A stretch of 64,000 nucleotides of DNA from an uncultured Helicobacteraceae bacterium (GTDB lineage: Bacteria; Campylobacterota; Campylobacteria; Campylobacterales; Helicobacteraceae): the NCBI GenBank assembly GCA_944323885.1, contig CALUUD010000002.1, forward strand, positions 595,308-659,307. Reading direction: 5' to 3'. Below are positions 4,437 to 10,782 of the stretch, piece by piece. Both the position numbers and the translations under genes were made by a program. Below the pieces are notes generated by a model. It made no database searches. It was given only the letters and a program-made list of their open reading frames with translations, and was not told the DNA's origin. Position 1 is the first letter of the stretch. Each line of letters starts with the position of its first letter.

Positions 4437-4461
4437 GGGCAGCAATTAAAGTATGCTGCCC
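4437..4461. terminator. Bidirectional rho-independent terminator katA / glycan operon
   Basis: An 8-bp GC-rich perfect stem (GGGCAGCA / TGCTGCCC) with a 9-base loop. On the minus strand it is followed by TTGTTTTTT, a classical terminator for the glycan operon. The stop codon of the fucosyltransferase is in the loop and its last sense codons form one arm. Confidence 0.8.
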
Positions 4462-5369
4462 CATAGATGATCTATTATAATCCATTCCTTAGGAAAGACA
4501 TCTTTATTCTTATCGTATGCAAATCTATCTGGTGATATAACTATTTTATCACTATTTTTATTCATTATTGCAGACCAAAATGAAAAAGTAGAGTTGGCAA
4601 TTATCTGATGTTTACATGAGCTCATTAAGTAGAGTTCAAATGCTGGATTATTGTCATATATATCAACAATGGTATACTTTATAGAATAATTAATATTCTT
4701 AATAAAATATTTTTTTACAAAATGCATATCATTGCTAAATATAAAATAATGACAATCTTTTAAGTAAGAATTGACAATATTAATAGCACTATCATAATAT
4801 GCCTTACCCAATTTTACAAATCCATGCAAATTCATATAATCACCTCGTCTTATATGGATAGCTACTGAATTTGCTTTACTCTGTATTAAATCAAACATAG
4901 CAATATTTCTATTATCTAAATTATCAATCAATGTTAGATTTAAATCAATATTTTTAAAATATTGATAACTTGTAAAATAACCACTTATATAGGAATTATC
5001 TACAATATCTAACATATTCTCATCATAAACAATCTTAGAATTTTCAATTGGCATATATTTATTATCCAATAAACGCAATCCATTATAGAATGTTCTATAT
5101 GCAATAGCATTAATTATATACTTAATCTTACCCTCATAAGGTAATATTTTTATTTTATCAAGATTAGATAATGAAAGAATTGGCAATTCTATGTTAAATT
5201 TATTTAAAGATAACTCTCTTTTTTCATTGTGATCGCAATCAAATCCATACTTACTAAACCAAGAAGAATCTAATACAACATCATAATTATAACGATGTTT
5301 TAAGTATAAACCATAAGCATATATGCATAACTGGTTACCTAATCCGCCAACTAAACTAATTGCAACCAT
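4446..5369 (-). CDS. GT11 alpha-1,2-fucosyltransferase-like protein
   Basis: A 307-residue glycosyltransferase of family GT11. It starts with the family signature LVGGLGNQLCIYAYG, and carries the GDP-fucose binding motif VAIHIRRGDYMN in the middle, followed by IVDIYDNNPAFELYLMSSCKHQIIANSTFSFW-type motif II near the C-terminus. GT11 enzymes move fucose from GDP-fucose to galactose in alpha-1,2 linkage, as FutC does for Lewis-type antigens in H. pylori. It is the last gene of the wecB glycan operon, 6 bases after the previous gene. GDP-mannose, the GDP-fucose precursor, would come from ManC encoded at 16.7 kb. The exact linkage is inferred. Length is normal for the family. Confidence 0.88.
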   Translation of the reverse strand: MVAISLVGGLGNQLCIYAYGLYLKHRYNYDVVLDSSWFSKYGFDCDHNEKRELSLNKFNIELPILSLSNLDKIKILPYEGKIKYIINAIAYRTFYNGLRLLDNKYMPIENSKIVYDENMLDIVDNSYISGYFTSYQYFKNIDLNLTLIDNLDNRNIAMFDLIQSKANSVAIHIRRGDYMNLHGFVKLGKAYYDSAINIVNSYLKDCHYFIFSNDMHFVKKYFIKNINYSIKYTIVDIYDNNPAFELYLMSSCKHQIIANSTFSFWSAIMNKNSDKIVISPDRFAYDKNKDVFPKEWIIIDHLWGSIL

Positions 5370-5375
5370 ATAAAA

Positions 5376-7091
5376 CTATTTCCATATAAATAATTTTACA
5401 CGAGATTTTAATGAATCAAGCATTTCTTCATCTTTTATAAGTTTTCTTAAAATTTTCCTGCATATATAAATCAAATACCAATTAAAACTAAAGTTAACTT
5501 CTCTCATTCCATATTTATATTTTAAAATTTTTAAAGCTTGATTCATTTTATTTAAATTTGATATAGAAGTTGAAATAGAATTATCATCCTTACCATACTC
5601 CCCACCATTTACAGAACTAAAAAAATCTTTATTCTTATGTGGTGGAACAAAGGTGCTAATATTTAAATATTTTTTCAATGCAAATGATAGATAAGCATCT
5701 TCAGCTACATTATTTAATGCATAAAATTCATTTGAATTAATCCACATAGCACCTAAATAGTCTTTTTTTAAAAACCAGCTATGCCCTACAAAATCAACCT
5801 TGATTGTTTTTTTGTTATTCAATGCAAAAGGTGGATTACAATTCCAGCCAAAAGTGCGATGTGCCATATCAAATGGATACTTAGCAAGATCATTTGATAA
5901 TATCCCAATTCCACCATATAAGCCATCTCTTTTTAAGATCTCATTATGGCAATTTTCGAGCCAACGATGCGCTGGTATAGTATCGTCATCAAAAAAGCAA
6001 ACATAAGTACATTTTGCTAACAATCCACCTGCAAATCTTCCCCATACACCTGTATTGTAATTCACCATAATAATGTTATCAAATATAGATTCTATATCTT
6101 TTGGGATTTCACTAGTTACACAATGGTAATCTTTTTTGTTTGGTGTATCAACAAATAAAATGAGCTCTTTTGGTTTTAATGATTGTTTCAAAACAGCATT
6201 TACTTGTTCTTTTAATAAGTCACCACGCTTATATAATGTAAAAACAACACTTACATCACAATTGAAATTATCATACATATAACAATTTCTACTACCAAAT
6301 ATAGAATGCCTATCTTGATATGGTCTTGTTTGAGTATCTATATAATAGCTATCAATAGAACTGCCAAAATCGATGTATGTATTATATGGATTAAATAAAA
6401 ATAATTCTTTTATAATAGGAGAACTCATAGGTCCCGCACTAACTACAAATAATAAATCTCTACTATCTTTAAAATCATTCTTAATAGAATGTAACATATC
6501 TAAAGCGCGATTCTCCCAAAAATTAATACAATCATCATCAATTTCATAATGTTTTAAAATATTTAGATTTCCTATTTTTGCATCTTTTGCTCTATAATTT
6601 GCTATCAATATTGCATCTCTTTTTATAAGCTCAAATCTTGATCTGAATCTTTTAAAATTAGAATTTATCCATAAATTTGCAAATGTAATATTTTTTGACT
6701 TTATTCTACTTGTATACCAATAATAAGCCTCTTTATCACAACAAGGGCAAGAAATGGCATAATAAAAATTAGATTCCACAATATCAAGGGAGTTATAGAT
6801 ACTTTCACCTAGTTTTGATACATAACTTGGTGATGTCCATTTTTTTTCTTGAGATTCAACACTAATACCAAGCATTATAGCACGCTCGCCATCAGCATTT
6901 CTAACAAATGCAAAATTCTCATTATTTAATATTTTATTTATAAAATAATCAAACTCTTTATCTAATCTTTTTAGTTTGTGTTTTCTTATATATGGATTTA
7001 TTAATTTTGAAGTTAAATAAAAGTTGTAAATATGATTTATCAAAATATAAAAAAAACGAATCTTGTAGAGCTTTTTTATAATTTTTTTCAA
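5376..7091 (-). CDS. Two-domain protein: GT-D-like domain plus family 2-like glycosyltransferase
   Basis: A 571-residue protein with two apparent sugar-transferase domains. The N-terminal half (about residues 45-260) has FVRNADGE at 62-69, matching the FxRxGDGE signature of GT-D fold glycosyltransferases (DUF1792). The C-terminal half (from about residue 278) begins DVSVVFTLYKRGD like GT2 enzymes and has the metal-binding run FFDDDTIPAH with Asp368-370, followed by an Asn/Trp acceptor region. Such fused proteins would add two sugars in sequence to a growing glycan. It lies 12 bases after the phase-variable glycosyltransferase gene and 6 before the fucosyltransferase. Donors and acceptors are unknown; the GT-D call rests on the one motif plus size. 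Confidence 0.7.
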   Translation of the reverse strand: MKKIIKKLYKIRFFYILINHIYNFYLTSKLINPYIRKHKLKRLDKEFDYFINKILNNENFAFVRNADGERAIMLGISVESQEKKWTSPSYVSKLGESIYNSLDIVESNFYYAISCPCCDKEAYYWYTSRIKSKNITFANLWINSNFKRFRSRFELIKRDAILIANYRAKDAKIGNLNILKHYEIDDDCINFWENRALDMLHSIKNDFKDSRDLLFVVSAGPMSSPIIKELFLFNPYNTYIDFGSSIDSYYIDTQTRPYQDRHSIFGSRNCYMYDNFNCDVSVVFTLYKRGDLLKEQVNAVLKQSLKPKELILFVDTPNKKDYHCVTSEIPKDIESIFDNIIMVNYNTGVWGRFAGGLLAKCTYVCFFDDDTIPAHRWLENCHNEILKRDGLYGGIGILSNDLAKYPFDMAHRTFGWNCNPPFALNNKKTIKVDFVGHSWFLKKDYLGAMWINSNEFYALNNVAEDAYLSFALKKYLNISTFVPPHKNKDFFSSVNGGEYGKDDNSISTSISNLNKMNQALKILKYKYGMREVNFSFNWYLIYICRKILRKLIKDEEMLDSLKSRVKLFIWK

Positions 7092-7103
7092 TATAACTAC
7101 CTT

Positions 7104-8021
7104 TTAGGTGAATTTTGTAAGACATAAATATAAGATTCTACCTAAAATACCTCTAGATTTAAATCTTACCTTCCCTTTTGACCAATTGCTATTTAATATA
7201 TAACAAATATATTGGCTTTTTAGATTTGAAATATTATTTCCACTTAACCTATCTAAAATATATTCAGACTTTGTATGATAAATCTTAAAGAATGGCTCAA
7301 TTGAAACTTCTCTTATCAATGATATTTTTTGAAAATATGCACTATACCAAGTAAATTCAAATGGAGAAATTTCTAACAAATCAATAAAAGTAAGATTTCT
7401 TGGTTTCATAAAACTATCTCTAAAATCACATAATACTTTATATGAAAAAATTTGACTATTATGACATGTCCTTAATCTAGAATCTTTTACTTCCAAAAAA
7501 TCAAATATTTTTTTTATAAAATGAATTCTGTTTCTTGCAAAATCTATATAATAAGCCTTAGAGTGTAAATCTTTATCTTGAACAAGAGTTATATATGGGG
7601 TGGTATCATCATAAAAGAAATCACTAACCTTAAAATCTCTAATAAATATAGTGTCACTATCAATGCACAAATAATGCTCTGCAAACTTGTATTCAAAAAA
7701 AGCAAGTTTTGCAATTTCTTGATTCAAATATCCACTACTCAATCCACTTGTTCTTTTATTTTTTATCAAATATGGAAATGCAAAATCTGTATCTTGTATA
7801 ATTTTTATACATTCATCCTCAAATATTTTAAAATCACTAAAACTATTGCCATTTGGTATATCTAACAACCCCCCCCCATTTTGTGCATATATATTTTCAT
7901 TTTGAACAGCAACTACAAATGGAATCTTATCAATATTGTGTTTTTTAAAACTATCTATCATAGAAACAAAAGCTTTATAATCATTGCTATAAGTAATACA
8001 AAAGAAGCAAAACTTTTTCAT
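7104..8021 (-). CDS. Putative glycosyltransferase with DSD motif and phase-variable G9 tract
   Basis: A 305-residue protein resembling the DUF6492-type GT-A proteins: an N-terminal strand FCFFCITYSNDY, then the metal-site motif CIDSDTIFI with Asp121-Ser-Asp123. The C-terminal third contains aromatic acceptor-side motifs (SPFEFTWYSAYFQ) often seen in these proteins. On the coding strand nine consecutive G's encode Gly49-51; the gene reads through at this length, so the protein is ON in this sequence. Gain or loss of one G would frameshift it before the catalytic domain. It overlaps the preceding gene by 4 bases (ATGA coupling). Sugar specificity is not deducible. Confidence 0.72.
   Translation of the reverse strand: MKKFCFFCITYSNDYKAFVSMIDSFKKHNIDKIPFVVAVQNENIYAQNGGGLLDIPNGNSFSDFKIFEDECIKIIQDTDFAFPYLIKNKRTSGLSSGYLNQEIAKLAFFEYKFAEHYLCIDSDTIFIRDFKVSDFFYDDTTPYITLVQDKDLHSKAYYIDFARNRIHFIKKIFDFLEVKDSRLRTCHNSQIFSYKVLCDFRDSFMKPRNLTFIDLLEISPFEFTWYSAYFQKISLIREVSIEPFFKIYHTKSEYILDRLSGNNISNLKSQYICYILNSNWSKGKVRFKSRGILGRILYLCLTKFT
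7869..7877 (-). repeat. Homopolymeric G9 (coding strand) contingency tract
   Basis: Nine C's on the plus strand, i.e. nine G's in the coding strand of the DSD glycosyltransferase, in a genome where G/C runs over five are rare. Poly-G tracts in surface-glycan genes change length by slipped-strand mispairing in Helicobacter and Campylobacter. Confidence 0.9.
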
Positions 8022-9151
8022 TTAACTTCCTTAGATTTTAAAGATTCTATATAACTTTGTAGTAGAAATATAGAATCTTTATTTAATTTTTCATTTAGCA
8101 TAAGTAAGTTTGACTTTAAGCTATCATATATTTGAGTATTTATATTTTTAATTGCATACTTTAATGCATTATATAAATCATTATCAAAAAATATCGCATT
8201 ACTATTATCAAAACCAAAGCTAATTCCAAAATTATTATTAATCACAAATGGCAAATTATACATAAGGCTAAATTGTCTAAGACCGCTAGTACAATCCATT
8301 AAATAATGTTTATGTGCAAAATTATCAAAGATTCCAAGTGTATAATGTGGATTATATTCTTTTAGAATATTAAGCAATTCATCATTAGTTGGATTTTTAA
8401 AAAAAGATATATATTGTTCAAATTTTAAATCTCTAAAATCACTTCTTCCAATTAAAATAAATTTAAAATTTACAATACCATCATTTAAAAGTTTATCAAT
8501 AGTTTTATATAACTGCTTTCTAAAATTTCTATGATAGATTGGAAAACCTATACTAATAAATGTAGCAATATTATTTCTTTTAAATTTAATACCAACATTC
8601 TTTGAGCAAGAAATACCATTTAAATTAATTTTATTAAATTGCAAATCTCTAAGTGAAAAATAACGCTTTTCTTTATAATTTTTTATATCATTAAATTTAT
8701 AAATATCACTTATTGTATGATAAATACCTAATATTCCATATTTGCTTTTTATATTTACTAATTTTGGTATATGATGATTTAATTTTAGTGATAAAACCAT
8801 AGTGTTTAAAAATACAAAATCATAAGATTGTATCTTAGTAGATTGAAGTATAGACAAAATATCAGATAACTCCATTTTGATAGCATTATTATAATTAGCT
8901 TCTGCTCTTAGCATAATATCAACTTTATATCCAAGCATATTAAAATAATAAACAATAGAATCTATACATTCAAGATGAAAATTATTCATTTCTACAAGTA
9001 AAATATTGCCATTGGGAGTAAAATTTGAGCAAGTATCATTATTTATAGAATTTAAAAATAGCAGATCACTATTTAAATTCTTTTTATAATTAATAAAATA
9101 AAAAAATTTATTTCTTATAAAATAAAATAAATCAAATAAATAAATAATCAT
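8018..9151 (-). CDS. Putative GT-B glycosyltransferase of the glycan operon
   Basis: A 377-residue protein. After a membrane-associating, aromatic N-terminus (about residues 1-25) comes NILLVEMNNFHLECIDSIVYYF, similar to the first Rossmann half of GT-B enzymes. The C-terminal half has a Rossmann-like strand NFKFILIGRSDF, and then YTLGIFDNFAHKHYLMDCTSGLRQFSLMYNLPFVI, the place where GT-B enzymes bind the nucleotide sugar. I do not recognise a defined subfamily and no GPGTF-type EX7E motif is clear. It overlaps wecB and the following gene by 4 bases each, so its translation is coupled to both, which supports a role in the same surface glycan. Confidence 0.6.
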   Translation of the reverse strand: MIIYLFDLFYFIRNKFFYFINYKKNLNSDLLFLNSINNDTCSNFTPNGNILLVEMNNFHLECIDSIVYYFNMLGYKVDIMLRAEANYNNAIKMELSDILSILQSTKIQSYDFVFLNTMVLSLKLNHHIPKLVNIKSKYGILGIYHTISDIYKFNDIKNYKEKRYFSLRDLQFNKINLNGISCSKNVGIKFKRNNIATFISIGFPIYHRNFRKQLYKTIDKLLNDGIVNFKFILIGRSDFRDLKFEQYISFFKNPTNDELLNILKEYNPHYTLGIFDNFAHKHYLMDCTSGLRQFSLMYNLPFVINNNFGISFGFDNSNAIFFDNDLYNALKYAIKNINTQIYDSLKSNLLMLNEKLNKDSIFLLQSYIESLKSKEVK

Positions 9152-10281
9152 ATTTTCTTTATGAATTGCACAATCTTCTTAGCACTCTGTCCATCGCCAA
9201 ATACAAGTGGATTCTTAGGATTTGACATTTTTTTATATATCTTGTCATTATTAAATATTTCTAATACAGCATTAATAATCTTCTCTTTATTGGTACCAAC
9301 TAAGCGAAGTGTTTTACAAGAAAGCGCTTCTGTTCTTTCTGTGGTATTTCTAAGAATAAAAGTTGGTTTATGCAAATAAGTTGCCTCTTCTTGTATACCT
9401 CCACTATCTGTCAATATGATATAACTTTTATTCATTAAATAAACAAACTTTTCATAATTAAGAGGCTCTATCAAATGGATATTTGAAAGACCACCTAGAA
9501 TCTTTCTCATAGGAATTTGAATATTTGGATTTAAATGTAGAGGATATACTATATGTACATTTGGTAGATGCAAAGCTATTTGCTTAATTGCATTTGCTAT
9601 ATTTTCTATATCTATACCAAAACTTTCTCTTCTGTGTGCAGTAACCAAAATAAATTTAGTATTTGTTATACAAAATGAAAGATTAAGAGATGATAGAATA
9701 TCTTTCTCTAAGTCTCTATTTGATTTTATTTTTTCTAACATTAATTTCAAAGCATCAATTACACTATTGCCAACAATTTTTATATTTGATTTTTTAACTC
9801 CATCTAATATAAGATTATCATATGCCAGTTTAGTTGGAGCAAAGTGATATGTAGATAATCGTGTAGTTAATTGTCTATTTAACTCTTCAGGAAATGGATT
9901 ATATTTATCAAATGTTCTAAGACCTGCTTCAATATGGGCAATCTTTATTTTAAAATAGAACCCTGCAAGTGCAGCCATAAAAGTAGTTGTTGTATCACCA
10001 TGAACAAGTATTAAATCTGGGGCAAATTCTTCTAAAACTGGTTTTAATTTTGATAATACATTTATGCTTATACTAAATAAATCTTGAGATTCTTGCATAA
10101 TATTTAAATCATAATCAGGACATATATTAAATGTTTTTAAAACCTCATCAAGCATACTTCTATGCTGTGCTGTTATGCATATTTTTGTATTGATTGTTTT
10201 TTCTTTTTTGAGTGCTAATATAATTGAACAAAGTTTTATAGCCTCAGGTCTTGTTCCAAAAATTATTAATACTTTTTTCAT
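9148..10281 (-). CDS. wecB: UDP-N-acetylglucosamine 2-epimerase, non-hydrolysing
   Basis: A 377-residue cytoplasmic enzyme that interconverts UDP-GlcNAc and UDP-ManNAc. Family signatures are intact: FGTRPEAIKL at residues 8-17, HIEAGLRT with FPEELNRQLT, the UDP-binding TAHRRESFG, and DSGGIQEEATYLHKPTFILRNTTERTEA near the C-terminus. Size matches the family. It is the first gene of the minus-strand glycan operon (wecB, GT-B, DSD glycosyltransferase, GT-D/GT2, fucosyltransferase), so ManNAc or a derivative is probably a component of the glycan. The region upstream, shared with divergent msrB, is 90 bases of A/T-rich DNA. Confidence 0.95.
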   Translation of the reverse strand: MKKVLIIFGTRPEAIKLCSIILALKKEKTINTKICITAQHRSMLDEVLKTFNICPDYDLNIMQESQDLFSISINVLSKLKPVLEEFAPDLILVHGDTTTTFMAALAGFYFKIKIAHIEAGLRTFDKYNPFPEELNRQLTTRLSTYHFAPTKLAYDNLILDGVKKSNIKIVGNSVIDALKLMLEKIKSNRDLEKDILSSLNLSFCITNTKFILVTAHRRESFGIDIENIANAIKQIALHLPNVHIVYPLHLNPNIQIPMRKILGGLSNIHLIEPLNYEKFVYLMNKSYIILTDSGGIQEEATYLHKPTFILRNTTERTEALSCKTLRLVGTNKEKIINAVLEIFNNDKIYKKMSNPKNPLVFGDGQSAKKIVQFIKKI

Positions 10282-10371
10282 AGATTAAACTCTAAATTTT
10301 GAACTTATTTTAAATTATTTTGTGATTTAATTAATATCATTAAGGAAATATATCTAAAAAAGGTTGATAAT

Positions 10372-10782
10372 TTGAATAGCTTAAGCAAAGAAGAAGAAAT
10401 AGTAATAATACATAAAGGTACAGAAATGCCATTTAGTGGAGAATATAATGATTTTTTTAAAGATGGAATCTATATATGCAAACAATGCGAAACACCTCTT
10501 TATGATTCTAAAGATAAATTTTCATCTGGCTGTGGATGGCCAAGTTTTGATGATGAAATCAATGGTGCAATAATGAGAGAAATAGACAAAGATGGAATAA
10601 GAACTGAGATTATGTGTGCAAATTGTAAAGGACATTTGGGGCATGTATTTAAAGGAGAAGGATTTACCCCAAAAAATACTAGACATTGTGTAAATTCAAT
10701 TTCATTAATATTTGTTCCAAGGGATAAAATAAAACAACAAACGAGTCTAGAACAATATGAAAATGGACTTATAAAGAATTGA
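10372..10782 (+). CDS. msrB: Peptide methionine-R-sulfoxide reductase MsrB
   Basis: A 136-residue enzyme that repairs methionine-R-sulfoxide in proteins. The catalytic Cys106 lies in [11 protein letters not shown], where most relatives have RYC; the possible resolving Cys54 is in SSGCGWPSF; the zinc site is two CxxC pairs, Cys36/Cys39 and Cys82/Cys85. The start is TTG at 10372, 9 bases after AAAAAGG, with no ATG that keeps the N-terminal helix. H. pylori carries MsrA-MsrB as a fusion, whereas this is a stand-alone MsrB. There is no signal peptide, so it acts in the cytoplasm. The gene is monocistronic, divergent from wecB, and followed by a probable terminator. Confidence 0.95.

Follow-up and report, generated by a model that had tools for sequence, protein, structure and literature searches.

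Does the run of nine guanines inside a surface-glycan gene of this 64-kb window (the whole stretch of DNA analysed) act as a switch? The original prediction described a G9 contingency tract encoding Gly49-51 of a glycosyltransferase, ahead of the DSD motif at residues 121-123, and called it the longest G/C homopolymer of the window. The sequence bears out this description: positions 7869-7877 of the + strand are nine consecutive C's (C9), corresponding to G9 on the - strand, which is read as GGG GGG GGG (codons 49-51, Gly49-51) in the 305-aa ORF 8021..7104(-). No other G/C run in the window exceeds six nucleotides, the second-longest being a C6 at 708-713. Runs of at least nine appeared in 0/100 Markov simulations of order 1 and order 2, and in 5/100 simulations with an order-3 model, which was trained on the tract itself. 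The claim that gain or loss of one base truncates the protein before the DSD motif also agrees with the products predicted for the successive tract lengths (G8, 52 aa; G9, 305 aa; G10, 59 aa; G11, 53 aa; G12, 306 aa): the full-length frame is open at G9 and G12, and every frameshifted form (G8, G10, G11) ends before DSD. With G9 in frame, the gene is ON in the present assembly. The coordinates of the tract and its surrounding genes are given in Table 1.

Table 1 Features of the tract-bearing operon in the 64-kb window, with the evidence for each.
Feature	Position	Strand	Basis
G9 tract, predicted slippage switch	7869..7877	-	tract sequence, frame consequences, simulations
DUF6492-like putative glycosyltransferase, 305 aa, ON at G9/G12	7104..8021	-	Pfam DUF6492, DSD motif
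DSD motif, residues 121-123, downstream of the tract	7653..7661	-	invariant in three aligned orthologs
wecB-type UDP-GlcNAc 2-epimerase, operon gene 1	9148..10281	-	TIGR00236 448 bits, synteny
377-aa gene without family match, operon-conserved, 4-nt overlap with each neighbour	8018..9151	-	synteny
571-aa protein, GT2 domain at the C-terminus	5376..7091	-	PF00535 31.2 bits, synteny
GT11 (alpha-1,2-fucosyltransferase-type) gene, no tract in the window copy	4446..5369	-	PF01531 78.2 bits

The tract gene is presumed to encode a putative glycosyltransferase, on the basis of a sub-threshold Pfam match, the DSD motif and the operon setting. The 305-aa protein scores 22.4 bits against Pfam DUF6492, just below the cut-off of 22.9, and the three aligned orthologs all match DUF6492 too. 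With three orthologs included, structure prediction reached a mean pLDDT of 42.8, which is poor, and a GT-A fold is only presumed. Searching the PDB by sequence with the tract protein returned a single weak, irrelevant match and no relevant relative; no relatives of the gene were found in viral contigs, plasmids or PHROGs, and none of the papers searched names DUF6492.

The tract lies inside a five-gene glycan operon, as had been proposed: wecB, the 377-aa gene, the DUF6492-like gene, the GT2-domain gene and the GT11 gene lie in the same direction, separated by 4-nt overlaps or short gaps. An identical gene order, adjoining msrB, is present in two relatives, Helicobacter sp. 16-1353 (stretch L028) and a Helicobacteraceae MAG (L029), whose sequences match genomes G001 and G004; the first four operon genes keep the same order in stretch L097 of genome G002. 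The GT11 gene carries tracts of its own in these relatives: in L028 and L029 a G9 splits it (open lengths 8 and 11), and in G002 it terminates in a G9 where the window counterpart has only a run of four. The switch-bearing pathway step thus differs between species. The operon contains one internal switch in the window and two each in two relatives.

Several further differences between these operons were observed. The wecB gene is broken by a premature stop in G002 (L097 3793-4923) and is intact in the window, L028 and L029. The operon genes of the larger-genome relatives (L028 2111-10486, L029 2564-9463), compared with window 4446-10782, contain extra DS/ES-rich low-complexity coding inserts, some of which harbour poly-G tracts; msrB of L028 also has such an insert, and the tract gene is 389 and 463 aa long in the relatives versus 305 aa in the window. 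AGATTC/GAATCT words are 2-3x denser in the L028/L029 regions than in the window; a hexamer scan by Markov ratio did not single out AGATTC-type words.

Across overlapping sets of 5 genus, 121 family and 397 phylum genomes, the tract gene turned up only in four species, all of one genus. An exact G9 is present in 4/4 orthologs, within the linker that precedes the DSD part. The residues around it are AQN-GGG-LLD in the window, DRN-GGG-QNL in L031/L097, VSN-GGG-QKK in L028 and QMV-GGG-RSD in L029; the flanks do not align across orthologs, linker length varies between about 20 and about 200 residues, and the codon phase differs in L029 (gtG GGG GGG GGt). The run is conserved without its codons or its context, which argues for maintenance of the run at the DNA level, or for its regain at the same place. 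These features make it improbable that a flexible Gly-Gly-Gly linker is kept for the sake of the protein, slippage being incidental and the gene in practice constitutively on. Such a linker would fit the open frame of all four orthologs, in which G9 encodes GGG; against it, GGG is the rarest glycine codon in the long ORFs of the window (8%) and yet stands three times in succession, neither the neighbouring residues nor, in L029, the codon phase is kept, and other runs of such length in this genome frequently break the frame or fall between genes.

The length variation expected among relatives was not seen at this locus (G9 in 4/4 species, one genome per species), and a constant length in relatives is, taken formally, the outcome that the original prediction had named as speaking against it. 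This invariance counts for less because G9 is both the modal length in these genomes and the in-frame length in all four species; it lowers the case for demonstrated switching, not that for a switch-like build.

The tract belongs to a genome-wide set. The genome containing the window (1.45 Mb, 4 contigs) has 14 tracts of at least G7 and 12 of at least G8, namely nine G9, three G10 and zero G8. Since none is found at G8 and the mode is at 9, they are not the tail of chance runs. Their lengths resemble the published Campylobacter distribution (53% G9, 26% G10; PMC6321876). Among the genes involved are a GT2 glycosyltransferase that the tract splits and leaves out of frame (L003), a 503-aa ORF at a tract with the nearby ATG out of frame (L001), an in-frame FkbM-domain methyltransferase (L018), an epimerase (L020) and a formyltransferase-domain protein (L009) with the tract at the gene end, and an out-of-frame SAM methyltransferase (L024); the tracts of L005 and L007, outside any long forward ORF, appear to be intergenic. 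These mixed in-frame and out-of-frame states are the pattern of contingency loci. One orthologous methyltransferase tract varies in length (G9 in this genome, G10 in G002, G11 in G001); its open length is 10 in all three, and it is in frame only in G002. Within the sampled stretches of G001 and G002 (about 364 kb and 164 kb, picked for holding tracts, so that tract density there does not represent the genome average), 36 of the 79 tracts flanked on both sides by long ORFs were in frame. At the family level, all 120 genomes searched contained tracts of at least G8, up to a maximum of 251 per genome; with 12, this genome is among the poorest of its family, and near-complete congeners have 69-142.

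Two other arrangements of tracts were observed. Intergenic G8/G9 tracts in G001 (L075, L080, L082, L083) and in the genome of the window (L005) are followed immediately by a TAGAAT/TAAAAT-like box and have a TTTAAG- or TTAAGC-like stretch upstream; they are possibly promoters with a slipping spacer. In clusters of sugar-modification-type genes (L074 in G001:C12; L009, L012 and L015 at C2:267-273 kb of the genome of the window) each gene has a G9/G10 tract near its 3' end, and orthologous tracts are of unequal length (G10 against G9); slippage there could join or separate adjacent reading frames.

The dinucleotide AT precedes 50-55% of tracts of at least G8 genus-wide (55-56% in the G001/G002 stretches, L066-L097), versus 10-17% for G3 and G4 and 10% for G5-6, the shorter classes that are numerous. 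The bias is present in 5/5 genomes of the genus, many other genera of the family showing about 10-20%. The triplet on the 3' side depends on tract length (AAT after G10; CAG, TAG or TAT after G9). At the window tract the preceding AT forms an ATG (aATGGGGG), and at G10 it lies in an open frame of 258 aa, so that translation might restart there and yield an alternative form minus the first 48 residues. This reading, in whose favour AT stands before 55-56% of long tracts in G001 and G002 and before 10-16% of the well-sampled shorter classes, is very unlikely: no Shine-Dalgarno-like sequence is visible just upstream, the missing segment contains the conserved first beta-alpha-beta part, and among out-of-frame tracts preceded by AT the ATG enters the downstream frame in only 7/26, about the one third expected by chance. 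The AT bias is lineage-specific, and the data lend no support to its use as a restart codon.

A chance run or an assembly error in an AT-rich genome is scarcely credible, even with the error-prone homopolymer lengths of some sequencing technologies and the few order-3 simulations that reached nine, as separate assemblies of four species all have G9 at the same place with the frame open, and the genome has G9/G10 runs yet zero G8.

Mismatch repair appears weak in the genus. There was no MutL match in 5/5 genus genomes, and for MutS1 only weak, sub-cut-off partial matches to ORFs of 737-753 aa, probably MutS2, were obtained; control genomes matched. Weak mismatch repair is common in hosts of contingency loci and not strictly defining of them. 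C. jejuni has no functional mismatch repair, and such tracts undergo 1e-4 to 1.6e-3 indels per division there (PMC8355987).

Taken together, the G9 is very probably a contingency locus that would switch by strand slippage, of the standard Campylobacter/Helicobacter type; it is ON in the assembly, and switching is predicted from the sequence. This contingency reading, advanced in the original prediction, is supported by the genome-wide tract set, the conserved site, the out-of-frame siblings, the methyltransferase tract of unequal length, the split GT11 genes and the lack of MutL and of a MutS1 above the cut-off; the constant length at the locus stands against it. A homopolymer of at least eight G lies within the frame, such tracts are over-represented relative to chance and form a genome-wide set (12 tracts, all G9/G10), and length varies among relatives at sibling tracts and not at this one. 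The polymerase would slip on the G run during replication, adding or losing one G, and the slips would probably persist at high frequency, given no MutL and a MutS1 below the cut-off. G9 or G12 would keep the DUF6492-like frame open (ON), and G8, G10 or G11 would stop translation after 52-59 residues, before DSD (OFF). As the tract gene is third in a glycan operon, the OFF cell would display a surface glycan lacking the sugar added by this gene, possibly together with later sugars. The tract with its frame effects, its conservation, the operon, the out-of-frame siblings and the missing MutL match are observed; we infer how often the tract slips in this species, what the enzyme does, and which glycan is made and how the cell gains from it.

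A broader reading is offered tentatively, and we consider it rather unlikely: the poly-G switches of this genus may be persistent insertable linkers, the run being kept while its coding surroundings turn over, so that the set of switches in a glycan pathway would change more quickly in evolution than the enzymes of that pathway. The run, usually preceded by AT, would remain as its surroundings change from a short linker to about 200 DS-rich low-complexity residues, and tracts would appear and vanish at different points of neighbouring genes within one operon.

Phase-variable fucosyltransferases, for instance futC, are present in Helicobacter pylori. The locus described here is like them in the predicted frame switching of a surface-glycan transferase, and the operon holds a GT11 gene that is split by poly-G in two relatives; unlike in futC, it is the DUF6492-like gene, rather than GT11, that bears the window tract, and there is no evidence for Lewis antigens here. 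The reptile-Helicobacter genome paper mentions neither phase variation nor homopolymers. The likeness to the Campylobacter 'phasome' (PMC6321876) extends to the G9/G10 modal lengths, tracts that mostly fall within ORFs and have their G's on the coding strand, the presumed frame switching, the mixed ON/OFF states and the lack of functional mismatch repair; unlike the phasome, the tract is found in a genus-private DUF6492-like transferase of a Helicobacteraceae operon, in a genome with few tracts for its family. The locus extends the known poly-G contingency genes to a little-studied Helicobacter-type lineage and to a transferase that is genus-private and uncharacterised. The four orthologs, in which G9 is kept despite changed flanks and codon phase, provide clean comparative evidence for a maintained DNA run, and operons with one versus two switches form a natural series for asking which glycan step is given the switch.
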